From contig NC_135251.1 of NCBI RefSeq assembly GCF_964204865.1, positions 13,020,001-13,084,000 of the forward strand: a stretch of DNA of 64,000 nucleotides, written 5' to 3'. The stretch is from Styela clava (lineage: Eukaryota > Chordata > Ascidiacea > Stolidobranchia > Styelidae). The translations under genes and the position numbers were made by a program. The notes beneath the pieces were generated by a model, which worked only from the letters and a program-made list of their open reading frames with translations, did no database searches and was not told the DNA's origin. Within the stretch, counting starts at the first letter, position 1. Every line of letters begins with the position of its first letter. This document shows positions 3,508-30,664 of this stretch, in pieces.

Positions 3508-6500
3508 TCACTTTGCCCTTTGTGATCTGTGTTCTGGAAGGACTGCACCGAGTTTTTGTACACATATTCCGCTAATTAGGAGTAGGAAAGAAGTCAATAT
3601 GGAGCATCCCATTGAATAAAAATAAGCAGCTTTGTACGTTTCGTAGATGTCTACCAGATGTCCTGCAAAATTAAAGCAAATCATACTTTTAGTAAAAAGC
3701 TAACATCCAAACAGGGGGTTGCAAGATTATTAGAATGCAAATATCTGAATGTTGAAATTAGCTACGGCCTACGGGTAGCAGTATTTGATCAACATCTACT
3801 TGCTACAAAGTCGTAGGAAGAATTGAGTCCGGATTGTCAAGTCAAAACCTGTTTGGGGAATATCAGAAAACAAAACATTTCGAAAATAGAGACCTAAATA
3901 AATCTTAGGCTACTTGAGTGAAAATTTTGAAATATTTTGACCCTAAGCCTTTATGCAGAATATGACTCGGACATGTTGGTACGAAGTAAAACGATCTGAT
4001 TTGATACATTATATCCACCCGTGCTGCAATTAACCAACTATGCCTAATCCCATACACCACAATGCAAAGTTAATCAAAAATAAACTTACCCGCAAGAGGC
4101 GCACTTATGGCGGCTGCCACTCCACCTGTTAGCAAAATCGGGCCAATGAATTTCACTACATTTTCTATTCCAAAGAGTGCTGGAATCGCTGTCGCATTTG
4201 TGGTAACAAACATTCCGAACAGACAACCATAACATATTGCAAAAATTGAAAGACTTTCGAAACCGGTCGCAAAAAGTACCATTGCACATATTCCAGCTTT
4301 AGCCAAGAAAATGAATCCCATTATAAATAAAATTTTTGTTTCCATGTTTTGATAACAAGAAAGCAAAAACCCGCTAAGTGGCCTGCATATCGCATCTCCG
4401 ATTGCTGTCATGAACAGGAGTAACACAGCTTGTTCATTAGTACATCCCAAATCTTTTGCGAACGGGACCATAAAAATGATCGGGTGATAACCACAAAGTC
4501 CTATTCCAAATTCCGCACATGCAAGAAGCATGAGGAGCCAATAGTCATTTAACAATTTTAACACTCTGGCAGCTTTTGACTTGTTGACATCCACTACGTT
4601 TTGCTCTTCTGCTTGTTGAATGTAATCCAGAACTTCCAATGAAACAGTCATTGCCTGGATTTCATCGAGATTTGTAGCTTTATCAGCATATTGTAAATTT
4701 TTATATTTTGGCATCTGCTTTGCTGTGACCGTACTAATAGGTCTTACCAGAGACGCAAACACACAAATATTCAATTCAATGCCGGCGAAAACTATTAGAG
4801 CACCTCTCCATCCATACGTATAAATAAGATACTGCGCAAGAATGGGAATGAGCATCGAACCTACTGAACTTCCAGTAGCTGCGATTCCGTTAGCAATTCC
4901 TCTCCATCGACAGAAATATATGTTTATTTGGGCCATTATGGAAGAGTATGACCAACTGAATCCAATTCCTAAACCAAAAAATAAGTTTTAGTGGATTTCA
5001 TGACAAAACTGAAGACAATAAAATGTAATAATGTAATATTCCTTTCGCGAAAAACGACATTTCCATTTTATTTACTCTACACTAGATTGAATTGTTTATT
5101 GGTGTCATAGAACTTTGTAGAAAACCTACAACATTACATAATATGTTATACACGAGGTAGGCTACTGGTGGGGTCTTAGGTATGAGGCAAATAATTGGAG
5201 ACCCCGAAGAATGTGCACCAAGATGGCGCACAACCTGAACACATTATGTGTACCCAGTTAGAGTTCAGGTTGTGCGCCATCTTGGTGCACATACTCCGGT
5301 AGCGCCAAGTATTTTAATAAGATAACATCGGAATTTTTTTTACCATAGAGGGAAATAAAAATAACTTGACACAGAAATAACATGAATCCATAGCTGACAT
5401 GGGCAAACTACGGCCCGCGCGCCAAATCCGGCCCGTGGAGTAATTCAATCTGGCCCGCCTGATGCTGCCACAACCAAACTAAAACCAAATTTCGATGTTT
5501 TAGCTGAAAAATAGCTGAAAGACTTGTTGAGATATCGAAAAATTTTAGCATTGGCGTGAGGCTTATTGTTTTCCACTTCTGCTTTTGTAACACTCTAAAT
5601 ATTGTTCATAAAAGGTAACTTTTTTTGCCACACAACTGACATGACCCAGTGGCCAGTGTAGGTGAGCAACATTTTTGGCCCCTAGACCGAAACCTTGCCC
5701 ACCACCAATTTATAGACTATCATCAAGGCATGCCACATAATGTTATTATCAAAGTCAGTCTAGTATCGGTACTACGAAAATACGCTACCGGTGCAATTTC
5801 ATTATTTACGCGGTAGGAATGTCGTAGTTATCTACCCCAGATTATGCCAACGCCCAAGTAAGCGGTCCATATGCCACTGCCAAATCCTGTCAGCAGTAGT
5901 CCAAGACAACACAGAACACCAGATGTCAGTAAAACTTTTCTGCCTCCAAACTTTCTCATCAATATACCTGCGATGGGAGCTGAAAGCAGAAAAATATTTG
6001 TGAATATGTCCTGAAGTTAGCAATTTGTCATTTATAAAGCCTATTTGAAATCTTTTATAAGATGTAAAAACCAGACATTATGAGTAGGATTAGATTCAAA
6101 CTTAAAATTGTAAAAATATTTGATCAATTTAATATAATTCCGCCGTATATCCGCTTGCTAACGAAACTTATATGCATTTAACTCCAAAGCATTCATTTCT
6201 AATATTCCGGTTTCCGGATATAGTCAACTTGTCAGAATTCAAGTCCTAAGTGGCCTACTGCTCTATCACTGCATAAATTAATATGGTACTCCTGAAGTAT
6301 GCGCACCAAGATGTCGCATAACCTTAACCTGGTACACAACCTGAGTTCAGGTTGTGCGCCATCTTGGTGCGCATACTTCAGGAGGTTCATAAACATGTAT
6401 AGATAGCTCTTCACACGTCAAGCTGGTATGAAACTATGGCGATGTCCCTACTTTTTAGAGGTTTTGCGGTTTTCTGGAAAAATTAGAGAACTTCAATTTT

Positions 6501-8123: not shown

Positions 8124-11100
8124 TCAGAATAATGGAGGATACCCGAATAACTCAGAGTCATATTTGTATTTTTTAACTAATAATCCTCTTAAATCTGGTA
8201 TTTCTTTGAAATATGTCTCAAGTTTTTCATCGTCGGTTCGTTTCTGAGGGGGATAATTTTGAGGAAATGTCATGTTGCTCATTCCAATGGTATTCATGAT
8301 GAAAGGCATGTCGTCAGAAATTGTTTCTAGCTTAGCAATGAAATCGTATTTTACTGCACATGGCGAACATAGCTTGTAGAAAAGTTGCCAGTGTTCATTG
8401 TTGTCATCTGTTGAACTGACGTGAGTGGCAAATTCTTTAAAACTCAACAACGGTGAAGATTTGTCTGTCGGAATACTTGAATTTGAATATTTCTCGTGCA
8501 ATTTTTTTGCCATTCTCTTGAAAAATTCGTTTTTGGAATTTTCAAATTTATTACGATACGCTGAAAGCATTCGATGTAGGGGTTCTCTGACCATGATGAT
8601 TTTATAATAAGTATTCAGTCGATGCTTAATTTCTTTGACGTCACCCAAAGTTTGCAGATGCAAATTGAGATTTGCAATATCATGGATATCTCCGGATAAC
8701 TCAGTGGCATCTGATGCATTCACAAGACCTTCTGCGACAAGTAATACCTTCTTGAAATTTGTGCAACCAACTTTGGGGATCAGGCAAGCCAGTAACTGTA
8801 TTAAAAGTAAATGTTAGTTTTTCCTGTTCGATATTCTTATATCGCAGCCGCTCGCTAAATTTGGGACGATTGTCAAAATGGCAACACGTTATTCCGGCAG
8901 ATAAGTGAATGCAATCGCAATGAACTGTTTAATGTGTATATATACTTCGATAATCAGAAAAATAAGGCTGCTTCATTCCATCGTGAATCCGTGCAAGAAG
9001 TTGCTTTCAATGCGTAGTTTTTGTTGCTAAACCAACGTCCAATATCTTTTACAATATTGGATTTGGTATAGGCTTATATTGCTGGATCAAAAAGAATTCC
9101 AGAATCATTGCTAAATCATCAGATCAACTTTGGACAAGAATGCGAACATCGCTACTCTCTCTGAAGTAATTTTGTGACTTATATATTGAATTAATGCAAG
9201 ATGATGTACTATTTTTCAAACAACCCTCAAAGCCCCTATAGTAGAGCCGTTTTGAAAAGAAATGTTTCTTGAAAAATGTACATGTAAGTTACATAAATGT
9301 ACTCAGCCGCTTCGAAACTGATTTAGATCATTTACCTTGTATTTGTCTGAAAAGTACAATTTCGTTTTACTGATGAACTTTATAAAACCTTTGTCATCTT
9401 TTGGAATGATTTTATTTATTTTCAATTTCCGACAGGACTTCTCTAAAGTTTGGAATCTTAGTTTTTGCTCTTCGACAACCGAATTTGGAGGGAAATCTAA
9501 AAAGAATAGGATAATATGGTATTTGCTTATTGTTGTCCTTCGAACTTAAAGATATATATGATATAGGAGTATAGGGTTTCAATCAATTTATCTATTTATT
9601 CCATATTTACAAAAGCGCTTCGATAAAATATAAAAAGGTATTCTGTCAGTGTTCGTGCGAATTTCATTTTTTAAAAATACATTGAAAACTTTCATATACT
9701 ATAAGGAGAGAGAGACTCTTAGGGATAAAGACTACCCACCCCATGTATGTAAAGTTCGATTCCCGCGTTATTAGATTGACACGCGTTATGGAATGTGACT
9801 CCAATCTGAATTCCTTCAGACGTTAATGAGCACCACACTGAGCGAGGGAAATAAATCATGAAAGAAATGAATTAGAGCAACGACCTTGTTTCAGGCAAAT
9901 AACATGTACTATTAACAATACGCGGTAAAAATATTGAAATACACAGTAACCTCGCTACAATACCAAACTTATGAATCACAGTTTTGAACTAATTAGGTAA
10001 TAAACATCTACAGCAGTGGTTCCCAACCAGGGTGCCGCGGCACATTAGTGTGTCGCAAAAATATTTTGGTGTGCCGCGAAAAGATTTCATTTTTGAATTT
10101 ATTTCAACTGATTCCATTCTCTTGAATTCCACAAGAATTACCCCACGGCTCTTGCTAACAAACAGAAACGACAAATTTGAGAAGTCGTATTTCAGGTATT
10201 TGGGTATTGTTTAAATCCCGAATTCACTCTTTATTAGCCAACCGTCTTTAACATATGTCGCCCATATGAACGCATAGTTCTCCCAGGAATATAAAACCAA
10301 ACGTTGCGTAAAAAGTAGTACTTGTAAAAAAAGAGAGAACGGGCGGAAATAACTCACCAACATTAGAATGCCTAGCATTCTGGATGTCCGTTGTATGTGT
10401 ATTAAAAATACCCGATATTCGACAATTCGTTAAGAGTATTCTAATTATTCGATTCGATAAGAATATTCTATTTCGCTCACCCTTGCGAACGGTAATTATG
10501 GTAAATCTGGCATGGTAACATAAACACTGATGCACTATTTCACGAAAGCGTGGTAGAATTGGCGACTATTACATATCTCGAACACAGAAACGGTTATTTT
10601 TCGGATAGCTTTTGCGGTCTGAAAAGTCGAATAAGCGGATCGACATAATAACTGCTACGATCTTCCCCATCAGATTAAGCTCGAGCCTTGCACGAAATTC
10701 ATAACATGAAAAGATGATCGATTAAAATAGTTTATAACAACTTTAAACCTATTCAGTATTTTTAGCGATAATAAATAATTGTTGTAATGAAATACGGTTT
10801 GTTTGTCTCTTTCATATCTCTCGCAAGTGCCGACAATAACACTATTGAATGCTTTTGGCAATGAAGAAACATATTGAATTGTAACAAAAATGAAATAGGT
10901 TGTGCGAGATTGGAATACTTGTGATAATAATAAGGCGTAACATGGAACGGCGAAGGGCGAGAAAAACCAAAGCGTATTAGCGTCACGTATTACCCGTGCG
11001 GCCACGCATCTTTTACAATAATGGAATAATTACTATTAACCATTCAGGGTATGTTGTATTAACAAGAATAGATTTTCCCTCATCTGATCTTCTATGTTTT

Positions 11101-14961: not shown

Positions 14962-17900
14962 TTATTTCAATTTCGGCGAATACCCAAATAATTCAAAATC
15001 GTATTTGTATTTTCGAATTAAAGATTTTTTCAGTTCTGGTAAATTTTTAAAATATTCAGCAACTTTTTTGTCGTTTGTTCGTTTTTGAGGGGGATAATTT
15101 TGTGGGAAACTTTTATTTGTCATTCCAACTTTGTCCATAATATAATCCATGTCTTCATCTACTGTTTCTAACTTAGCAATATAGTCGTATTTTATTATAC
15201 ACGGGGAACATAGCCTGTAGTAAAACTCCCAATGTCTATTATTAATCTTTGTTGAACTCATTTGCGAAACAAAATTTGCGAATTCTTCGAAGCTAATTGA
15301 TTGAGATGAATTATCTATTTGCTCATGTGAATTTGTAAACTTGGAATGAATTTTATTTGCCATTTTCTGAAAAATAGGGTCCATATTACCCAGAAATTTG
15401 TCTCGGTAAGCTGAAAGTACACGATGCAAAGGCTCTCGAACCATCATCACTTTATAGTATGTCAATAACCGATGTTTGATTTCTGTGATATCTCCGAGAT
15501 TCGATAAAAGTAGAAGCCTATTTGCTGTATCGTGAACGCCTTTTATTTTCTTCGGGTTTGTTTCATTTGTCAAACTCTCCGACATGAGTAAAACCTTCTT
15601 GAAGCTTGTACATCCAACTTTAGGGATGAGACATGCGAGAAGCTGAAAAAAAAATTCAATCATAACTTTATGCAGTGGAAAGTGGCAATTACCTTGAAGA
15701 ATAGGATGCAATGACGATACGTTAGACGTAAGGATGGATATACTGTACCAATCGCCATCAAGGATAGGAGAGGAGGGGGGGAGGAATATCAATGAGAATA
15801 ATCATATGACGAGCCACGGCCTCTCGTCCGGTTACCAGTCCATGCCGAGTAAGGTATTAGGTTTATCAGTTATATGTTTCGGACGCAGGAACTTTAAATG
15901 GCCCTTCTTTTCTGTAGATTGCTTATTGGGCTGCCATATAGACATGGGGTTTCATGTTCAGAGCTGCACAACACAAGACGGATAACAAGAGCAAAAGACT
16001 TGTTTTTTAAAGTGTTCCCAATTATCTAGCACTGCTTCGAAAAAAAAAATTTGTACAGTAACAGTGTCTCTGTCGCCAAGTGAATACACCCCCTGCCCAT
16101 AGGCTTCAGTCCAGAGTAGGCGAACAAGATTAAATACATCATATTGGTACACACACTTCTGGAGCGCCCTTCAGACAATGTAATCCACCTATTTTCGATA
16201 CAGCGATAGGAGTTCGTCAAGTAGAATTCAGTCCAAATCGGAGACACTAATTAGGCCAAAAATAAAAGGATCTAGTCTATTCTAGTTTATAAATCAAGCT
16301 TTCTAATTTCAAATCGAATCTTGAACTCAGCGGAAATTCAGATTTACCTTATATCGATCAGAGAAATACAATCTAGTTCTTCGAATGAGTTTCATAAATT
16401 CCTTGTTCTTCAGTGGTTTCTTCTTGTTTAATTTCAGATTCCTGCATGCACGTTCAAGTGTACTTTGCCTGAGCTGTTGTTCGATAGTTTTTTTTTCTAG
16501 ATATAAAATCATTTTGTTCCTTGTAAGAAAACGCGAGTATGAAAATATCAGAAACAAATAAATAACATGACCTCCGCACTACAGGGCTTTACGTTGGGTT
16601 GCGAATTACATCTCCGAAATTACAAACAATCTCGTCCGGATATAAATGTTTCAAAACTGATTTCAGTTGTAAAAATCTTTTACACATCTATTACGCCGTT
16701 TCATCATTAATAAATTCAATTTCAGAAACAAATTGATTTTGTTATAACTGAAGCCTATAGCCTTATGCCTATCCAATAAATATGTTTTTAAAACACAAAT
16801 GGCATTACAAGCATCGAAAATTTGATATGTTCGACTCGCTGAAACTTTTCGAGCACTACAGGTCATTTCTTTGGAAGTGCGGCTTGCAAATACATGATGT
16901 CGTAGACCGTTGGGCAGGTGTTTACCACCAATTTTAGCGTTAAGCCTTTGCTCCCAATTTTAATGTACAAGTTTAGACACGATCCTTAGAAGTAGTGCAC
17001 ACAAGTCAACTTAAAAATCTAATATCACCTGGAACTTTCGACGAATATTCGAAGTATCTTGTTTTTGTCGGGATGTTTTCCTAGCAAAACAAATAATCGG
17101 TATTAAGTTTGGTCAGAATCATTTTCCTGAGCATGGACATGTTCAACATAAAACAAAGCTAGATTAATGTCTACATCAAATCAGAAAATGGAGTTTCATG
17201 GTATATTCCTATCCATGATTCAACAATAGGCTCGACCCGAAACAACGGAATAATAATATGAATTATAAAGCAATTACTGGATCTTTTATACAAATACCCC
17301 GCCAAAAAATCCCGACAACTCTCAAAATAAAAAAAATTAGTAGTTATCTAGTTAAAGTTAGGAATACAAATTGCGCTGGAAATTCAAATTTCCGGATCAT
17401 TCTGAACCCTAACCCCAATTGGATAATTACTAATTTGTTATTTTAAAACATGGCGGAAGTGTTTTTCTCAAATCTCACATTTTTGCATTATGGACAGTGG
17501 CTTTGTACAAAAGGTCCCAATTACTTTATCACGCAAAGTATCGTTAAACATTGTGATAACTGATAACTTGAAGTCAAATGTACTGAATACTATCTAGTTA
17601 GGCCAGTGGTTTTCAACCTTCTTGGTGGGGCGGAACCACAATGAAGATTAAAAATAGTTGCAAACCTGATATATCTGATCATAATTAAACAACATACATA
17701 TCTCAGATTTAAATGGAAACATGTGGAATATGTGGACTGTAGCGGCGGAACCCCAGGTTGCCGCGGAACCCAGATTCGGGCGCAATGAGTTAGGCTGATA
17801 GTATCTAATCGAGTCACATGCCACTCATTGATTGCACCGTCATTATTTTCATTGAAATCCACATATCTGCACGAGTATATGTTAAACAGGATATTTTTCT

Positions 17901-20379: not shown

Positions 20380-22800
20380 TTAGGATTTTCCGTTATTTAG
20401 TGAATATCCAAATAACTCATAATCATTTTTATATCTTGAAATCAAATTTTTAGTTATATTTGATAATCCCTTAAAATATTTCGACACTTTTTCATCTGTA
20501 GTCCTCTGTGACACCGGATAATTTTGCGGGTATGTAATATTTTGTATTCCGACTGTTTGCATGACGTAATTCATGTCATCATCAACGGTCTCTAACTTGG
20601 CAATAAAATTGTATTTGATGGCACAAGGTGAACAAAGTTTATAATAATGATCCCAGTGCGGGTCATCAATATAAGTATCATCGCCCGAGTTCAAATATTT
20701 CACAAATTCCACGAAACTTAATTTATAAGAAGATTTTTCTTTCAAAAAGTTAGATTTGGATAAAAATAAATGTATTTCTCTTGCAATTTTAGAGTAATAT
20801 TTATTGTCTGGAGCTTCAAACTTGTTTCTATATGCTGAAAGCACTCGATGCAATGGATCCCGAACCATCACGACTTTATAATAATTATTTAATCGACGTT
20901 TGATTTCTGTGACGTCACCAAGATTCTTCAGCTGCAGGACACGGTTTGCAATATCATGCGTGACGTGCCCAGATAACTCCTTCGGATTTGTATTGTTGAC
21001 TAAACCTTCAGCTACTAATAGTACTTTCTTGAAATTAGTGCAACCGACTTTGGGTATTTGGCATGCAATCAGCTGTGGTAAAGAATAATATTGATGAATA
21101 GACATTCATAGTTTTAAAGTTTCCGTTCTTTGCAATTTGGGTGAATCTTTGGGGACTTTTCGCTGGGTAATCACAATATAATACAGAAGTATAGTTTAAT
21201 TAAAAATGGTCTCCGTACATAAAATGGCACAATCAATGCTTTAATATATACTCTGTAAATAATATTGACTCTAAAATTACCAAATGTAGCCTATTACAGT
21301 ATACTGATCGTATGGATAATAGTAATACTATCGACGGCGATAAACACTGATATCTACTGTCTATACTAAGTCGATGCTTGCTACTTTTAAATTAAATCAT
21401 TATGATAATCACCTTGTATTTGTCAGAGAAGAATAACTTTGTTCTGTTTATGAATTCTAAAAATTCTTCGTCATTTTGTGGAATACTTCTAGTTAGATGC
21501 AACCTGGAACAGGATCGTTGAAGTGTTTCTTGTCTCGTTTTTTGCTCGTCAACCACCGAGTATTTCATAGTTGTTTCTGAAATAATAAAATGTTGCACGT
21601 TACACTACAAGCAATGGAGCTTAGATAGAAATATAGTGTTTTCGAACTAATTACTTCGTTGTGTTTGATCGCGTTGGTTTTTTCAAATGATATCGTATAA
21701 GTCTAAAATTCTCTAAAGTTTAAAAAAAATAATGCACTTGTAAAAATTATCTTATAATGAATTTGGTTTCTAGACACATTGTGTACAAGCTATTTAACAC
21801 TTGGCCTATTTATCAAAACGCTTCACAAAAGACTACGTCACACAGATCCGGATACATGAGCTTAATGATTTGCGGTTTAAAGGCAAATATCCATCTCACT
21901 TTTTCAGACAGTCTAGCTAGACTAAGATAGTGCTTTCTTGCGCTGTGAATTTCATAACTTGGCCTTGGTAAATTTATGCTATATTTGTATATTTGTTCGT
22001 ATCATATGCCAAGCCACATTCCCTCTCTTCCGAGGCGGCCCAAATGAAATATTCTATCCAGTTTTATTTACCGAAACATTAACTAAGACGATAATATTAC
22101 CTTGCGTTGTTGGTATGGACGTTAGCGCAAGTGTTGGACTCGTTCGTTCCTTGTGTTCGTTTGTCGTATTCGCAATAGGTTTTACTGTTGGTAATGGCAT
22201 TGACAAACTCATAAACTCGTGGGAGGTTTGCGAATATCTGTAACCTTTCTGAAAATATATGCATAATGGAAGAGTGCAATTTCGAAATATATCGTCTGCA
22301 AAGGATCAACTTCAAATTTGGATTGCAATCTCAGTATCACTAAACGATCGATCCCGAAATGAAGATCATTTTCATAATACTTATCCCTTATTGTCATCGT
22401 GATACTGATATATATGAACAGTTAGTGAGAACGGCGCTCCAGAAGTGTGTGTACCAATATGGAGGTAACTAATTTTATTTGCCTACTTTACATCAAGTTG
22501 TGTAAAGGGACTGAAACATATATATATATTCACTTGGATAACACAGACAGTCCCTGAACTCGTAATAGAACTAAAATGAGGAAAATCGAAAAAAATTATG
22601 GCCTAACCCTAACCTGGTACACACACTACCGGAGTACCTAAATAACACTGGCTTCCAATGCAAAAAACACGTCGTTTATAAAATCTAGTATGAAATAGTA
22701 AAATCGTCACCTGAATAACAAGATGCGAAGACGATGAATAGAACATCAGTGTGAATATTGCTATCAGAATGACTGCAAACATAACTGATTTCTTTTCCAT
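20380..22800 (-). CDS. Carbohydrate sulfotransferase C, HNK-1ST family
   Basis: Complete four-exon gene: 22711-22800 (MEKKSVMFAVILIAIFTLMF signal anchor), 22101-22248 (Ser/Thr/Pro-rich stem), 21413-21576 and 20380-21072. Phases join to 365 codons, 364 aa. An upstream in-frame ATG at 22834-22836 could add 12 residues. The catalytic exon carries IPKVGCTNFKKVLLVAEG, MVRDPLHRVLSAYRNKF, LCSPCAIKYNFIAKLETVDD and YKNDYELFGYS, i.e. the 5'- and 3'-PAPS-binding motifs and C-terminal block of the HNK-1ST/CHST8-14 family. Predicted Golgi type II enzyme. The long stem exon (49 aa, many Thr) is a likely O-glycosylated spacer. Intron 1 contains a MITE. Acceptor specificity is unknown. Confidence 0.88.
22433..22638. 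mobile_element. Long GG-ended MITE
   Basis: 206 bases from GGCGCTCCAG to CCGGAGTACC, closely matching 19859-20068 in body sequence. The flanks match only partly, so the target duplication is worn. It lies in intron 1 of sulfotransferase C. Confidence 0.75.
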
Positions 22801-25160: not shown

Positions 25161-28100
25161 ATGAAATTGAATTTATTAATATCCTGTATAGTTGTTGTGT
25201 GCGGAGTCGCACATTCCTGGTATCAACAGGATGACGAACTGGTTGACCTGATATCAAGACGAGTGGTTGACATAATGGAAGAAGAAATGAAAATTCCGTT
25301 AGTTTACCTGCACACTTTGAAAATGGAAAAAGAGGTCAATATACTGTCGTTACAGTCAGTTTTTCTCGCTTGGTAGCTTACTGAAGGATAAATTTAATTA
25401 GAACTAACCGAGTCAAATCATATTTTAGATAACTGTAGCCCAAGTCTAACCAATCTTCAAACTAGGCTACACCTTCAGACTTCTCCGGCGGGCGGTTTAT
25501 GACTTGAATTTAGTCCAAGTCAAATTATTTTTAAGTCCTAAAGTTAGCAGTGATGTAAAAGGTATTCGTACAAAAGACTACAAGGGTGATTTCCCGCGAC
25601 ACGCTTCGAGATAATCCACCTTTTATGACCAACCAAATAAATCAATTCGAATTCTAATAGAAACTTAATGACTCCTTTTTTTGTTCAACTTGTTCAATTT
25701 TTCGCGAGTATATCCTGGTTTTATATTAACCTGATCAAATCTTTCATTTAGGCAAAGCTCGGGGATGGTTCCCGATTCTTTCTCACATTTGAAGTGGCAT
25801 CTCCAATAGATGGAAATAAGATATGCGATGCCGTGTATGTGGAAGACACCAAATCAGTACCTTATTACGAGTGTTATGAACCAGAAGAGATTGACGAGCC
25901 TGAGGAGGGAATCGACGATTCAGATCCTTTCGTGTACGAAAGGGATGACATTCCTCTTGATGACGGGGAGGCTGACGACGATGATGATTCCCAATATGAT
26001 GATTGCTCGAGTGAAGACAGAGCGGTGAGTTTAAAATAGAAAAAAAAGAGTTCTGCTGCTTGCTTCCTCCCAAATCGACGAATCCTTCTTTTATTGCGAT
26101 TTCAATTCATTACAGCATGATATACTCAATGGACAGCATAATAAATATGATATACTTTTGGAATGTAGCGATATCCACGAACCCGTTCTTGGAATGTTGC
26201 GGTATCAGCGAACCCGTTTTTGTTTTAGACGTTAGACGACCGCGGTGACCATACATTTGAACCCACGTACATTTGAACCCATGTGTATATCCGCGGGTTC
26301 AAAAACCCGTGGGTTAGGTTAGTATGGGTTCAAATATCCGCAAAACAAAAAAAATTTCCATAGGTGCAATAGTATGCAGGTGCAATTGTCGTGGGTTCAA
26401 ATGTACGTGGGTTCAAATGTACGGGAACCGACGACCGCAGATGTCGGATAGCGTTATATTTGGCGTTTCAAAAGTTTTAGATTTATCTAAATATTCTAAA
26501 GCGTGCTATGTTAATGCAGCTTACGCGGTGACATGCGTATAGTTTCTGAAACGATAGAACCAATTGTTAGTGAGTTCCATATAAAAAAGAGCCCGTCCTT
26601 GAAATATTTGAATCCCACCACTGAATACAGTTGACTGAAGCGAGCCTGTTGGAGTAATAGCAATGCTTGCGACAGGATCCAACAACATTATAAATTGATT
26701 TAAAATACTGTTTTAGAATACATTGCCCATCTTCTGATGAAAATCATGACCGTCATAAGTTAAAATATAATCATTTTATAAATGAATAAACCCACATTTT
26801 TTCTCATCCACATATAATAATTGAGGATACATATATATATATATATATTAAGATTGAACTTGCTTTATATGTTGTATTTTTAATCGACGATTTCATATGT
26901 AAGGTACTGCGGTTGACATTCACCCGAACATCCTAAAACATAGATATATATAAAAAAAAAAATATCGCAAGCACTTTGGTATGTGGCATATATTGCTTTG
27001 CACCATTACGTTAAAAATGCAGTTCATTCGCTGTGAATTTACTTCACATTATTTCAATACTGTTTTAATAGTACCATAAAATGAAAAACAAGAAGACAAA
27101 TATAACTGAATCTGCTTTTATGTTTTAAATTGTAAGTGTAAACTACCAAATTTTTTTTCGATGCCTTCCTCCAGGAGTAAAAACCATTTTAGAACAGATT
27201 TAATCAGAGTTGTGGAGTTTGGCATATTTTCACTGCAGTCACTGCCGGAATCGTTTTTGAATTCTTGAATTTTGAATTCTCCGGAGTCGGAATTTAGAAC
27301 TTTCAATAGTGGTAGAAATCCCATTCGAAAACCATTAATTACACTGTGCAACACTAAAAAAAGTACAGGGTATCTGCAGCAATTTTTGTATACATAATAA
27401 CTTAGAAAATTTGTTTCTGGCTTTCTTTTTGTTGAATTAGGTATAGTTTTTGCAAAATTGACACAGTCGTGAATTTCAGTAAAAACGTCAAAAATGGGTT
27501 ACTGCCGTCTTTGCGGTCACATAATATGTGTATTATATTATAAATCTTGAGAGAAAAACACAGTTTAATATACACATATTATGTACATTATTTATTATTT
27601 GCAAAACACAACAGCCTGTTTCAACCAAAAGTCCATCAGGTGTTTTTTATTCAAATAGAATTGTAGTAGAATTTGTGTACATTAAACTGGCAGGGTAGTA
27701 ACTAGCTGTAATGAGTTTACAACAGTGTAGCACCAAAAGAAAGTTTGTATGCTTAATGTTATACTTTTCTAGTTTCAGTTTATTGAATTATGTGACTTAC
27801 CAGTTTGCAACAAATTACTACTCATAGCTAGGCCCCACTGCTACTACTGGAAAGACCTACCCTGATGTGCAGATGTAACATAAGTACTAGAGTGGAAGGC
27901 AAGGGTTATAGTATAGGCTTTGACGATGACTTCAAGACAGTGCAAAAATGATCCAAGCAAATTCTGCTACATATATGGCGAATTAACATTTGCTAAAGAA
28001 AGGCGCAGCATTACCAGCCATATCAAGAAATTGTACAAGGCGTACTTTCATTGTCATATAGGAGACCAAGACAAATCATGGGCTCCTCATGCCTGTTGCC

Positions 28101-30664
28101 TTACATGTGTGAAAACATTGAGCGCATGGTATGCAAAAAAGAATGTTCACATGAAGTTTGGTGTGCCAATGATTTGGCGAGAGCAGAAAGATCATTCTAA
28201 TGATTGCTATTTTTGTCAGCAGGACTATACCGGCTGTACAACAGCAAAAAAGAAGAAACACATCGTTTACCCAAATTTGCAGTCAGCAATACGCCCAGTT
28301 GGGCACTCAAAAGAATTACCTGTACCAAAACCCCCTGATCAGGAAATGTGGAGTTCAAGCAGTGGGGATGAACATTGCAGTGATGGAACAGTAGGATTTT
28401 CTGATTCAGAAAGCAATGATAAACCAATACTATTTTCTCAAGATGCTCTAAATGACTTATGCAGAGATCTTTATTTAACCAAAGACAAAAGTGAACTTCT
28501 TGCATCAAGGCCTAAAGAACGAAATCTTCTTGGAAAAGGGGTGAAAATAACATTATACAGAAAACGTGCACAAAACTTGCATGTTTATTTCACTCTGGCA
28601 GATGATTTATGCTTCTGCAATGACATTGTTGGACTTTTTGAACAACTGGAAATACCATATGATAACACCAACTGGCGACTTTTCTTAGACGCATCCAAAG
28701 AAAGCATAAAAGCTGTTTTGCTCCACAATGGTAACACCCTGCCATCTGTTCCTACAGCTTACAGCACAACTATGAAAGAATCATATGAAAATTAAAAACA
28801 ATTTTAACAAGCATACAGTATAACGTCTATAAATGGCATGTTTGTGCAGATTTCAGGGTTATAGCCATGCTCACTGGCCTTCAGTCAGGCTATACTAAAT
28901 TTTGTTGCTTCTTGTGCTTATGGGACTCTAGAGCAAGAGTTGAACACTATGTACGCAAGCACTGGCCCGCTAGAGATGAAATTGAGCAAGGAAAACATAA
29001 CATCAAACACAAACCACTTCTGCAAAGTGATAGAATCCATTTACCACCTTTGCATATTAAACTCGGTTTGTTCAAGCAGTTTGTGAAAGCACTGGACAAG
29101 GATTCCTTTGCATTTGCATATCTTGCAGAAAAGTTTCCTTCCTTAAGCCGAGCTAAAATAAAAGAAGGTATCTTCATAGGTCCCCAAATTCGAAAAATTG
29201 TTCTTGATGAAACTTTTGACACACATCTCACGAGAAAAGAAAAATGTGCCTTTGAGTCATTCAAGAAAGTTTGTGATAACTTCCTGAGAAAACATCGTTC
29301 AGAAGACTATGTGCAAGTTGTGAATGATCTAATGCGTCATTTTCATGATATTGGATGTAACATGTCTCTAAAAGTTCATGTGCTCCACTCTCATTTGGAT
29401 TTTTTTGCTGCGAATCTTGGCAATGTGAGTGATGAACATGGCGAAAGATTCCATCAGGATATTTCAATAATAGAGAAACGTTTTAAAGGAAAATGGAACA
29501 CTGGCATGTTGGCAGACTACTGCTGGAATTTAAAAAAGGATGCTGCCACTCTACACAAGAGGGTTAAGAGTACAAATGTTGTTTAAACTGGTGAATTCGG
29601 TTTTTTTTTTTCAAAATAAATATTAATAAAATACATGAAAATGGTACCTAATCCAGAGAAATAAATGTCAGATTTGGAATCAACATACTTTTCTTACACC
29701 GAGACAGGTCTTATATATCTTGTACTTTTTTTTCACTTCAAATTTGTTGCACAGTGTTATTTTAACTAAGCGTTCATATCAGAGGCAATGGACTTGTCAA
29801 TCAAAATTTGATTTTTTCGGATTTCGGATCTAGAAAGGGAGTCAATTTTTATACCTCAAGTCGGAGTCTATTCTTGATTTCCCGGTTCCAAAGCCCTGAT
29901 CATAATTTTAAAGTAGTTCTTAGTTTGTTCTTTCTTGCATTCAAAATAATGCATGTTGTTTAGGCTGCTTTATTTGGGCTTCGGCTGTAATTTTTTTTAG
30001 AGCTTGCTCAGGGAAATTGTGCACGACTTAAATAAACAAGTTGACGAAACAAACGATGAATTTGATATGCCGGATCCACTTGGAATGGATATGGGCAATT
30101 TCAAACAAGGTCATTTCGAAGGTGCATCGATATCATCGTGCAAAAAGATGGAAGTACAAGATGGAATGAAATACAAAGTAGAGATGAAGGCAAAACAAGA
30201 CCACGTGGTGAGTGTGATGGCAAAATCAGAAGCTAGTTTTTCCTATCTTTATTAAATATACATTCTCTAAGCCAAATCCATGACTCTCAATCAAACAAAT
30301 TGGTTAACTAATGGCTGAAAATCATATCATAAGCGCTATAAGCAGACAATGGACATGACCATTTGTTATTCAGCTCACTAACTGGCAAAACTTTCTCAGT
30401 TGATAACTACATCGCGACCTGGTTTTACTAGTGGACTATACATGTTTAGTTCGCTTTCGTTTTTATTAACTTAACAATCGGAAATAAAGATCTAGTGGCA
30501 AACCAAGCGTAATAACAAAGAAAATAGCACACGATGGGAATGTAAACTGGTTTACTTCATATTTGTATTAACAATATTTACAGAAGGAGACATGTCAAAT
30601 CATTCTGGTAGGAAAAATCAATGCACTCAAGATCACCAAAAACCAGTGCCAAGGCCAGAACTGA
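25161..30664 (+). CDS. Secreted two-domain cystatin-like protein with acidic linker
   Basis: Four exons, 25161-25334, 25752-26024, 30001-30207 and 30584-30664, all in phase 0 with GT-AG borders: 244 aa plus TGA. Residues 1-18 form a signal peptide (MKLNLLISCIVVVCGVAHS). Residues 20-95 look like a cystatin fold: a helix (ELVDLISRRVVDIMEEEM), then KLGDGSRFFLTFEVAS where cystatins have QxVxG and the next strand, then two Cys. Residues about 101-147 are almost all Asp/Glu. Residues 150-244 repeat the plan: helix LLREIVHDLNKQ, SCKKMEVQDGMKYKVEMKAK, and CQIILVGKINAL...NQC. The inhibitory QxVxG is degenerate in both, so protease inhibition is doubtful. AATAAA follows at 30854. Intron 2 (4 kb) hosts a transposon. 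The family call is by pattern only. Confidence 0.6.
26246..26430. mobile_element. Mutator-like MITE with 10-bp flanks
   Basis: 185-base imperfect palindrome with arms built of TACATTTGAACCCACGTACA and its complement. Flanks are ACGACCGCGG (26236-26245) and ACGACCGCAG (26431-26440), 9 of 10 identical, a length typical of Mutator-like target duplications. It lies in intron 2 of the cystatin-like gene. Confidence 0.7.
27342..29756 (+). mobile_element. 2.4-kb DNA transposon, 12-bp perfect ends, TTA flanks
   Basis: Left end CACTGTGCAACA (27342-27353) and right end TGTTGCACAGTG (29745-29756) are perfect inverted repeats. Inward similarity continues (A-rich tract, then AAAGTACA on each side). Both sides are flanked by TTA (27339-27341 and 29757-29759), consistent with a 3-bp duplication as in PIF/Harbinger-type elements. 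The interior carries the two-part gene at 27920-29586 and nothing else recognisable. The element sits in sense orientation in intron 2 of the cystatin-like gene. Superfamily assignment is tentative because the protein does not show a classical DDE core that I can point to. Confidence 0.7.
27920..29586 (+). pseudogene. Repetitive transposon-borne protein gene broken by one frameshift
   Basis: First part 27920-28795 (291 aa then TAA); second part open from 28789 to 29586 in the -1 frame, overlapping by seven bases in the A-rich GAAAATTAAAAAC. The N-terminal part has paired Cys motifs (SWAPHACCLTCVKTLSAW; DHSNDCYFCQQDYTGC) suggestive of zinc binding, and an acidic Ser-rich linker. The C-terminal part has GYTKFCCFLCLWDSR, LHIKLGLFKQFVKAL, IKEGIFIGPQIRK, HSHLDFF and SDEHGERFHQDI. 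I recognise this as a widespread, high-copy uncharacterised family of arthropods, cnidarians and others, usually one continuous protein, so this copy carries a single indel. Function unknown; the location inside terminal inverted repeats implies a role in transposition. Confidence 0.7.

Follow-up and report, generated by a model that had tools for sequence, protein, structure and literature searches.

The 64,000-nucleotide stretch of Styela clava DNA analysed here (hereafter, the window; C2:13020001-13084000 in a host genome of 376.6 Mb) very probably contains a broken copy of a low-copy DNA transposon, here called family A, a sister copy of which on contig C4 has an open gene. The transposon is, with high probability, of the Chapaev3 type within the CMC/Transib/RAG1 lineage, an assignment made by matching the published description of that group rather than by alignment with a named Chapaev3 element. 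Its identity is in itself ordinary, the group being already described in animals; the feature worth wider comparison is the unequal construction of its two ends.

The element is 2415 bp long and is bounded by exact 12-bp inverted ends (Table 1). The initial annotation had given the same coordinates, perfect 12-bp ends and TTA on both sides, all of which proved exact. Taken alone, the 12-mer means nothing, since its 47 exact genome sites equal the 47 of a reversed control pattern and show no enrichment. Pairing is the unusual feature, because a genome pattern search found six facing pairs, 2.05-3.1 kb apart and on six contigs, against a chance expectation of about 0.006 facing pairs within 4 kb (by arithmetic from 24 forward and 23 reverse sites). 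Inside their ends these copies match the window element, and their flanks of approximately 500 bases are mutually dissimilar (12 flanks compared, no cross-match at a cut-off of E 1e-3). Used as a DNA query, the whole element yielded 25 pieces, grouped into at least 10 genome places, six of which have both exact ends. The closest full copy, that on C4 (2416 bp), is 98.4% identical over 2416 columns. A check for gene copies lacking these ends, which the initial annotation had held would count against the mobile unit, was made in part, with both exact ends present in six copies and slightly different ones (CACTGGCCAACA) in the related families B and C, as expected of sister families.

Table 1. 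Features of the family A element by window position, with the genome positions of its paired copies
Feature	Position	Strand	Basis or remark
Whole element, family A, highly probable Chapaev3 type	27342..29756	+	Exact ends and target-site duplication; 98.4% identical full copy at C4:16860811-16863226
Left target-site duplication TTA, A before	27339..27341	.	Sequence
Left 12-bp terminal inverted repeat CACTGTGCAACA	27342..27353	+	Sequence
Left subterminal box AAAAAAAGTACAGGGTAT	27356..27373	+	Starts at base 15 from left end; 16 of 18 bases match right box
5' noncoding segment	27546..27908	+	Carried by the window, C4 and C16 copies and in part by the C5:10320489 copy
N-terminal part of broken transposase gene, ending at frame break and including the zinc-type Cys/His region and proposed catalytic Asp 1	27926..28795	+	98.3% identical to C4 residues 1-289
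N-terminal Cys/His-rich region: CxxC, CxxC, HxxxCxxC	27965..28216	+	First CxxC lacks one Cys in the window copy
Proposed catalytic Asp 1, D255 (C4 numbering), in WRLFLDASK	28688..28690	+	Invariant in four aligned sequences; sub-threshold RNase H-like Pfam match
C-terminal part of broken transposase gene, other frame (second Asp, C(2)C, LH, H(4)H, Glu)	28792..29586 (frame listed as 28789-29586)	+	98% identical to C4 copy
Proposed catalytic Asp 2, D309, in VCADFKV	28849..28851	+	Invariant in four aligned sequences
C(2)C motif CFLC, C328/C331	28906..28917	+	Motif named in PMC4079192
LH motif in PPLHIKLG	29050..29055	+	Invariant in four aligned sequences
H(4)H motif HVLHSH, H485/H490	29377..29394	+	Invariant in four aligned sequences
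Proposed catalytic Glu in SDEHGER(FHQD): E504 (29434-29436) or E507 (29443-29445)	29434..29445	+	Both invariant in four aligned sequences
Right subterminal box AAAAAAAGTACAAGATAT	29715..29732	-	Begins 10 bp farther in than its left counterpart, at base 25 from right end
Right 12-bp terminal inverted repeat CACTGTGCAACA	29745..29756	-	Sequence
Right target-site duplication TTA, T after	29757..29759	.	Sequence
Six paired copies	Window; C4:16860811-16863226; C5:5652609-5655701; C13:6638193-6640604; C14:21115074-21117547; C16:1531879-1533931		

Target duplications of the six paired copies read TTA, TAA, TAA, TAA and CAA, plus TTA/TTC; the two duplication copies are identical in five, so that TWA is found in four elements, CAA in one (C14) and the mismatched TTA/TTC in one (C16), and an A precedes and a T follows the duplication in all six. 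The right end of a seventh copy, on C18, has decayed, yet ATTA is still present on its left and TTAT on its right. The C14 copy lies in a high-copy repeat, and 40 of 40 scored unoccupied copies of that repeat (from 107 candidates) align across the joined junction at 87-99% identity. A single CAA stands at the junction in all four that were read in detail, and therefore the boundaries and the 3-bp duplication are fixed for this copy. Weaker support comes from the C13 target, with three diverged unoccupied paralogues at 69-70% identity (two of the three were examined in detail, and each has a 1-bp gap where the flanks meet), and from the C4 target, with one unoccupied paralogue of 53 bp at 89% identity. 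For the window insertion, the genome search returned its own flanks only and no unoccupied paralogue. The earlier proposal of a DNA transposon with a 3-bp target is upheld by the six paired copies, their duplications and the empty sites. It had called for a search for further copies with these ends, TTA flanks and empty sites; the ends recurred in six pairs, empty sites were exact for C14, and the duplications comprise TAA, CAA and TTA/TTC as well as TTA.

Elsewhere in the window, on the minus strand, three Sulfotransfer_2 coding stretches lie in a row (8127-8813, 14965-15801 and 20383-21105; Pfam E 6.4e-44 to 1.8e-45), and a coding stretch at 4073-4987 encodes a transporter of the major facilitator superfamily (Pfam MFS_1, E 8.8e-20). 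Within family A, two element subfamilies can be distinguished, which are approximately 87-96% identical where aligned; a 5' noncoding block of about 330-365 bp sets them apart and cannot be aligned from one to the other. This difference looks like a swapped promoter-side segment (the 5' noncoding segment of Table 1; L039, L041, L042, L040 and L052), the segment of the window being replaced by unalignable sequence in the C5:5652609, C13, C14 and C18 copies.

The transposase gene of the window copy is broken in two frames, and that of the C4 copy reads through as one frame encoding 553 aa, the sole ORF of at least 200 aa there. Relative to C4, the N-terminal piece has 13 codon differences (five non-synonymous) and the C-terminal piece eight (six non-synonymous). 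When the C-terminal piece was used as a protein query, 66 match pieces were obtained, and 47 of these are interrupted by stops. Four aligned proteins, which represent two families only (A and B, 50% identical) and in which motifs were read by eye, share three N-terminal zinc-type groups at residues 14-97 together with WRLFLDASK, VCADFKV, CFLC, PPLHIKLG, HVLHSH and SDEHGERFHQD. The first of these groups keeps C14/C17 in the three of four sequences that cover that part. The initial annotation was right in noticing zinc-type Cys pairs; the groups read CxxC, CxxC and HxxxCxxC, and the region is probably zinc- and DNA-binding.

The initial annotation had also pointed to an uncharacterised repeated protein family, and searches of Pfam, PHROGs and PDB with the protein indeed gave nothing above cut-off. 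It had seen no DDE core, for which D255, D309 and E504 (or E507) can now be proposed as the likely residues, judging from conserved motifs. Pfam RT_RNaseH_2 matches residues 241-306 below cut-off (E 0.0064), which would place D255 on the first strand of an RNase H fold; this match and the order of the motifs offer a hint of such a fold. Three scans of viral contigs and one of prokaryote contigs found no relative. Two of the viral scans were searches for related loci with the C4 protein (P0001) and A1 as queries; in the others, a degenerate GERFHQDI pattern matched three viral and 16 prokaryote contigs, on which tblastn detected nothing beyond short matches resembling chance (best E 0.063).

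Chapaev3 has been characterized by TWA duplications that are preceded by A and followed by T and by termini of CAC/GTG, together with C(2)C, LH and H(4)H, motifs described for Chapaev (PMC4079192). The element has CAC...GTG termini and follows the A-TWA/TWA-T site rule with one CAA site as an exception, and its transposase carries CFLC as C(2)C, PPLHIKLG as LH and HVLHSH as H(4)H. Given this combination of target, termini and core, the earlier suggestion of a little-described superfamily or a PIF/Harbinger relative is most likely incorrect. In size, 2415 bp and 553 aa compare well with those Merrow and Garfield elements that have whole transposases (2092-2455 bp, 554-562 aa; PMC4079192), although those genes have two exons and the present one is a single ORF; most other Chapaev3 transposases appear to be single-exon, and Conan_ET, also a Chapaev3, is shorter at 1865 bp and 461 aa (PMC4079192). 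Chapaev3 is described as distantly related to other Chapaevs, which are themselves distant from Transib, and an N-terminal zinc domain, Chapa, is named (PMC4411706); the Cys/His pairs at residues 14-97 may correspond to it. The order of motifs, with C(2)C and H(3-4)H placed after the second Asp and ahead of the Glu, is that reported for EnSpm, Mirage, Chapaev, Transib and RAG1 (PMC12730594).

Two further families in the same genome have similar ends, and the exact A-TWA/TWA-T arrangement is found in two of five B and two of three C elements; each of the remaining four departs from it at a single base. Family B, with copies on C9, C8 and C18 encoding 538-571 aa, has a protein 50% identical to that of family A; five of its elements were read at both ends, and three further loci resemble old copies of family B in which the two ends can no longer both be read. 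Its terminal 12-mer has 74 exact genome sites against eight for the reversed control, a count that is inflated because a separate repeat carries the same 12-mer: when 60 of the 74 sites were inspected as short stretches, 29 looked like B or C ends and 31 were unrelated by reading. In 17 of the 60, ATCATCT precedes the 12-mer, which apparently lies in the separate repeat by coincidence (sites on C1, C2, C4, C5, C6, C9, C10, C13, C14 and C17). Family C is older, with complete elements at L135, L138 and L139; it has the same outer 12-mer as B at the 3' end, one base changed at the 5' end and a different inner sequence. Two family B copies on C9 (L044, 2220500-2225000; L045, 2241900-2246000) lie about 21 kb apart in opposite orientation. 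They share 99.96% identity across 2316 bp, whereas their flanks differ, and both keep open frames, which suggests recent movement or gene conversion.

Among other readings of the element, the one that survives best, and it is improbable, is an undescribed superfamily of its own within the CMC/Transib lineage, having no more in common with Chapaev3 than TWA sites and motifs. The protein is nameless in the Pfam, PHROGs and PDB searches and its likeness to Chapaev3 rests on descriptions, as such a superfamily would have it; however, A-TWA-T, CAC/GTG, C(2)C with LH and H(4)H, and the element and protein lengths occur together as the set printed for Chapaev3. EnSpm/CACTA elements have a 3-bp duplication, CACT-type ends and a tnp2-type transposase. 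The present element resembles them in the first two respects and in C(2)C with H(3-4)H (PMC12730594), but its TWA site rule and single 553-aa ORF fit Chapaev3 better. With no tnp2-type Pfam match at E up to 5, EnSpm/CACTA was rejected.

A relationship to PIF/Harbinger is very improbable. TWA 3-bp duplications do occur in that superfamily, and four of the six copies have one. PIF/Harbinger elements encode a Harbinger-type transposase plus a second, Myb-like protein, against which the C4 copy has one ORF among those of at least 200 aa, the size class considered. The CACTG ends and the C(2)C and H(4)H motifs represent different termini and a different core, and no Pfam transposase was matched at E up to 5; PIF/Harbinger was rejected on its termini, its core motifs and the absence of a Harbinger-type match in that search. 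A domesticated or captured host gene family lying between chance inverted repeats is scarcely credible and was rejected, for although one copy keeps an open frame and the 12-mer alone occurs at background frequency, the six pairs on six contigs, the 3-bp duplications, the exact empty sites and the stops in 47 of 66 protein match pieces all speak against it.

As a Chapaev3-type element, family A would move by cut and paste. The transposase, as seen in the 553-aa C4 protein, would comprise the N-terminal Cys/His region followed by a DDE nuclease core with C(2)C, LH and H(4)H, core motifs common to Chapaev and in part to EnSpm/CACTA, Transib and RAG1. It would bind both ends and cut outside CAC...GTG, with D255, D309 and E504 as the putative catalytic residues, and the excised element would join an A-TWA-T target, leaving the 3-bp duplication.

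Inward of the 12-bp repeat, the two ends of every family share a further inverted match, which is AAAAAAAGTACARGRTAT in A, TGGTGCCYAAG in B, and a T run followed by CARYTGA in C. In every family this box is deeper at the end 3' of the transposase gene, moving from base 15 to 25 in A, from 20/21 to 30/31 in B and from 31 to 41 in C. Among family A copies, the gapped score of the box pair was reached by 5 of 2000 dinucleotide shuffles for the window, 3 for C4, 9 for C5, 13 for C14, 52 for C16 and 343 for C13; corresponding counts were 0-39 for B copies and 0, 8 and 927 for C copies, the last being L139, in which the inner part of one end is deleted. Without gaps, the best offset in the 14 elements of the three families with both ends read was +9 or +10 in 11, +11 in C5, +8 in C13 and -17 in L139, which places 13 of 14 between +8 and +11 with the longer side at the 3' end. 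In this ungapped test, C13 was reached by 77 and L139 by 220 of 600 shuffles, and single B and C elements, L139 apart, were modestly significant only (7-37 of 600). The probability that three shuffled families agree within one base was 0.0006-0.001 (ungapped run, 9 of 14 elements), a figure to be read with the families not being independent: all three have a common ancestry, and some inner words of B recur in C.

Positions were also counted over distinct single ends. In family A, GTACA lies at 21-22 on the left (five ends) and 30-32 on the right (seven ends), the C13 right end not matching the motif and an unrelated match (L001) having been dropped. The family B box lies at 20-21 on 18 of 19 left ends and at 25-33, with a mode of 31, on 14 right ends. 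For family C, whose left and right ends were scored with different marker words, positions are 27-28 on the left (three ends) and 36-41, with a mode of 39, on the right (seven ends).

Recombination signal sequence (RSS) nonamers start at +20/+31. The A and B boxes, near +21/22 and +31/32, resemble the 12/23 RSS arrangement in an offset of about one helix turn; unlike those of A and B at +21/+31, the family C boxes start at +31/+41. In sequence, the subterminal boxes are unlike the RSS nonamer, save for an A run in family A. Bipartite ends with unequal spacing are likewise found in ProtoRAG (27/31 bp) and in the RSS (12/23), and most Transib families are reported as symmetric (PMC8289069). Transib, ProtoRAG and RAG1-RSS share with the present element the C(2)C and H(3-4)H motifs (PMC12730594) and termini that begin with CAC, and a protostome RAG-like consensus, CACTWMCAAACK (PMC7204232), looks similar to the ends here. 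RAG-like elements differ in making 5-bp duplications (PMC7204232), against the 3 bp shown here by empty sites, and invertebrate RAG-like enzymes are expected to be relatively insensitive to end asymmetry (PMC7204232). The resemblance of CACTGTG to an RSS heptamer (as the reverse complement of CACAGTG) was given no weight because families B and C start with CACTGG. Pfam RAG1 did not match P0001 or P0002 at E up to 5; the RAG1 profile found no match in the genome, a result that is uninformative, as the profile also matched none of 14 controls. Chapaev3 as a group is distantly related to the enzyme that shuffles antibody genes.

It is possible, though we consider it doubtful, that Chapaev3 ends are bipartite and asymmetric in the manner of V(D)J signals, each consisting of the 12-bp repeat and a second transposase-binding box that is about one helical turn deeper at the 3' end, such that a short-spacer end pairs with a long-spacer end. 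A 12/23-type rule may then be older than Transib/RAG and a property of the CMC/Transib lineage at large. The transposase would in that case make use of the unequal ends. The plain alternative is that the three families owe the asymmetry to common descent, though the boxes differ between families and match within each. No report of unequal Chapaev ends was found in the portion of the Chapaev and Chapaev3 literature searched, nor is such asymmetry mentioned in the available portion of PMC4079192.

For the repeated protein family, which has no Pfam or structure-databank match, these results supply a probable name, ends, a target and a proposed active site, and naming it Chapaev3 would strip a false orphan family from annotation. 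The asymmetry of the ends, if functional, would allow the origin of the 12/23 rule to be tested in transposons that are small and encode a single protein.
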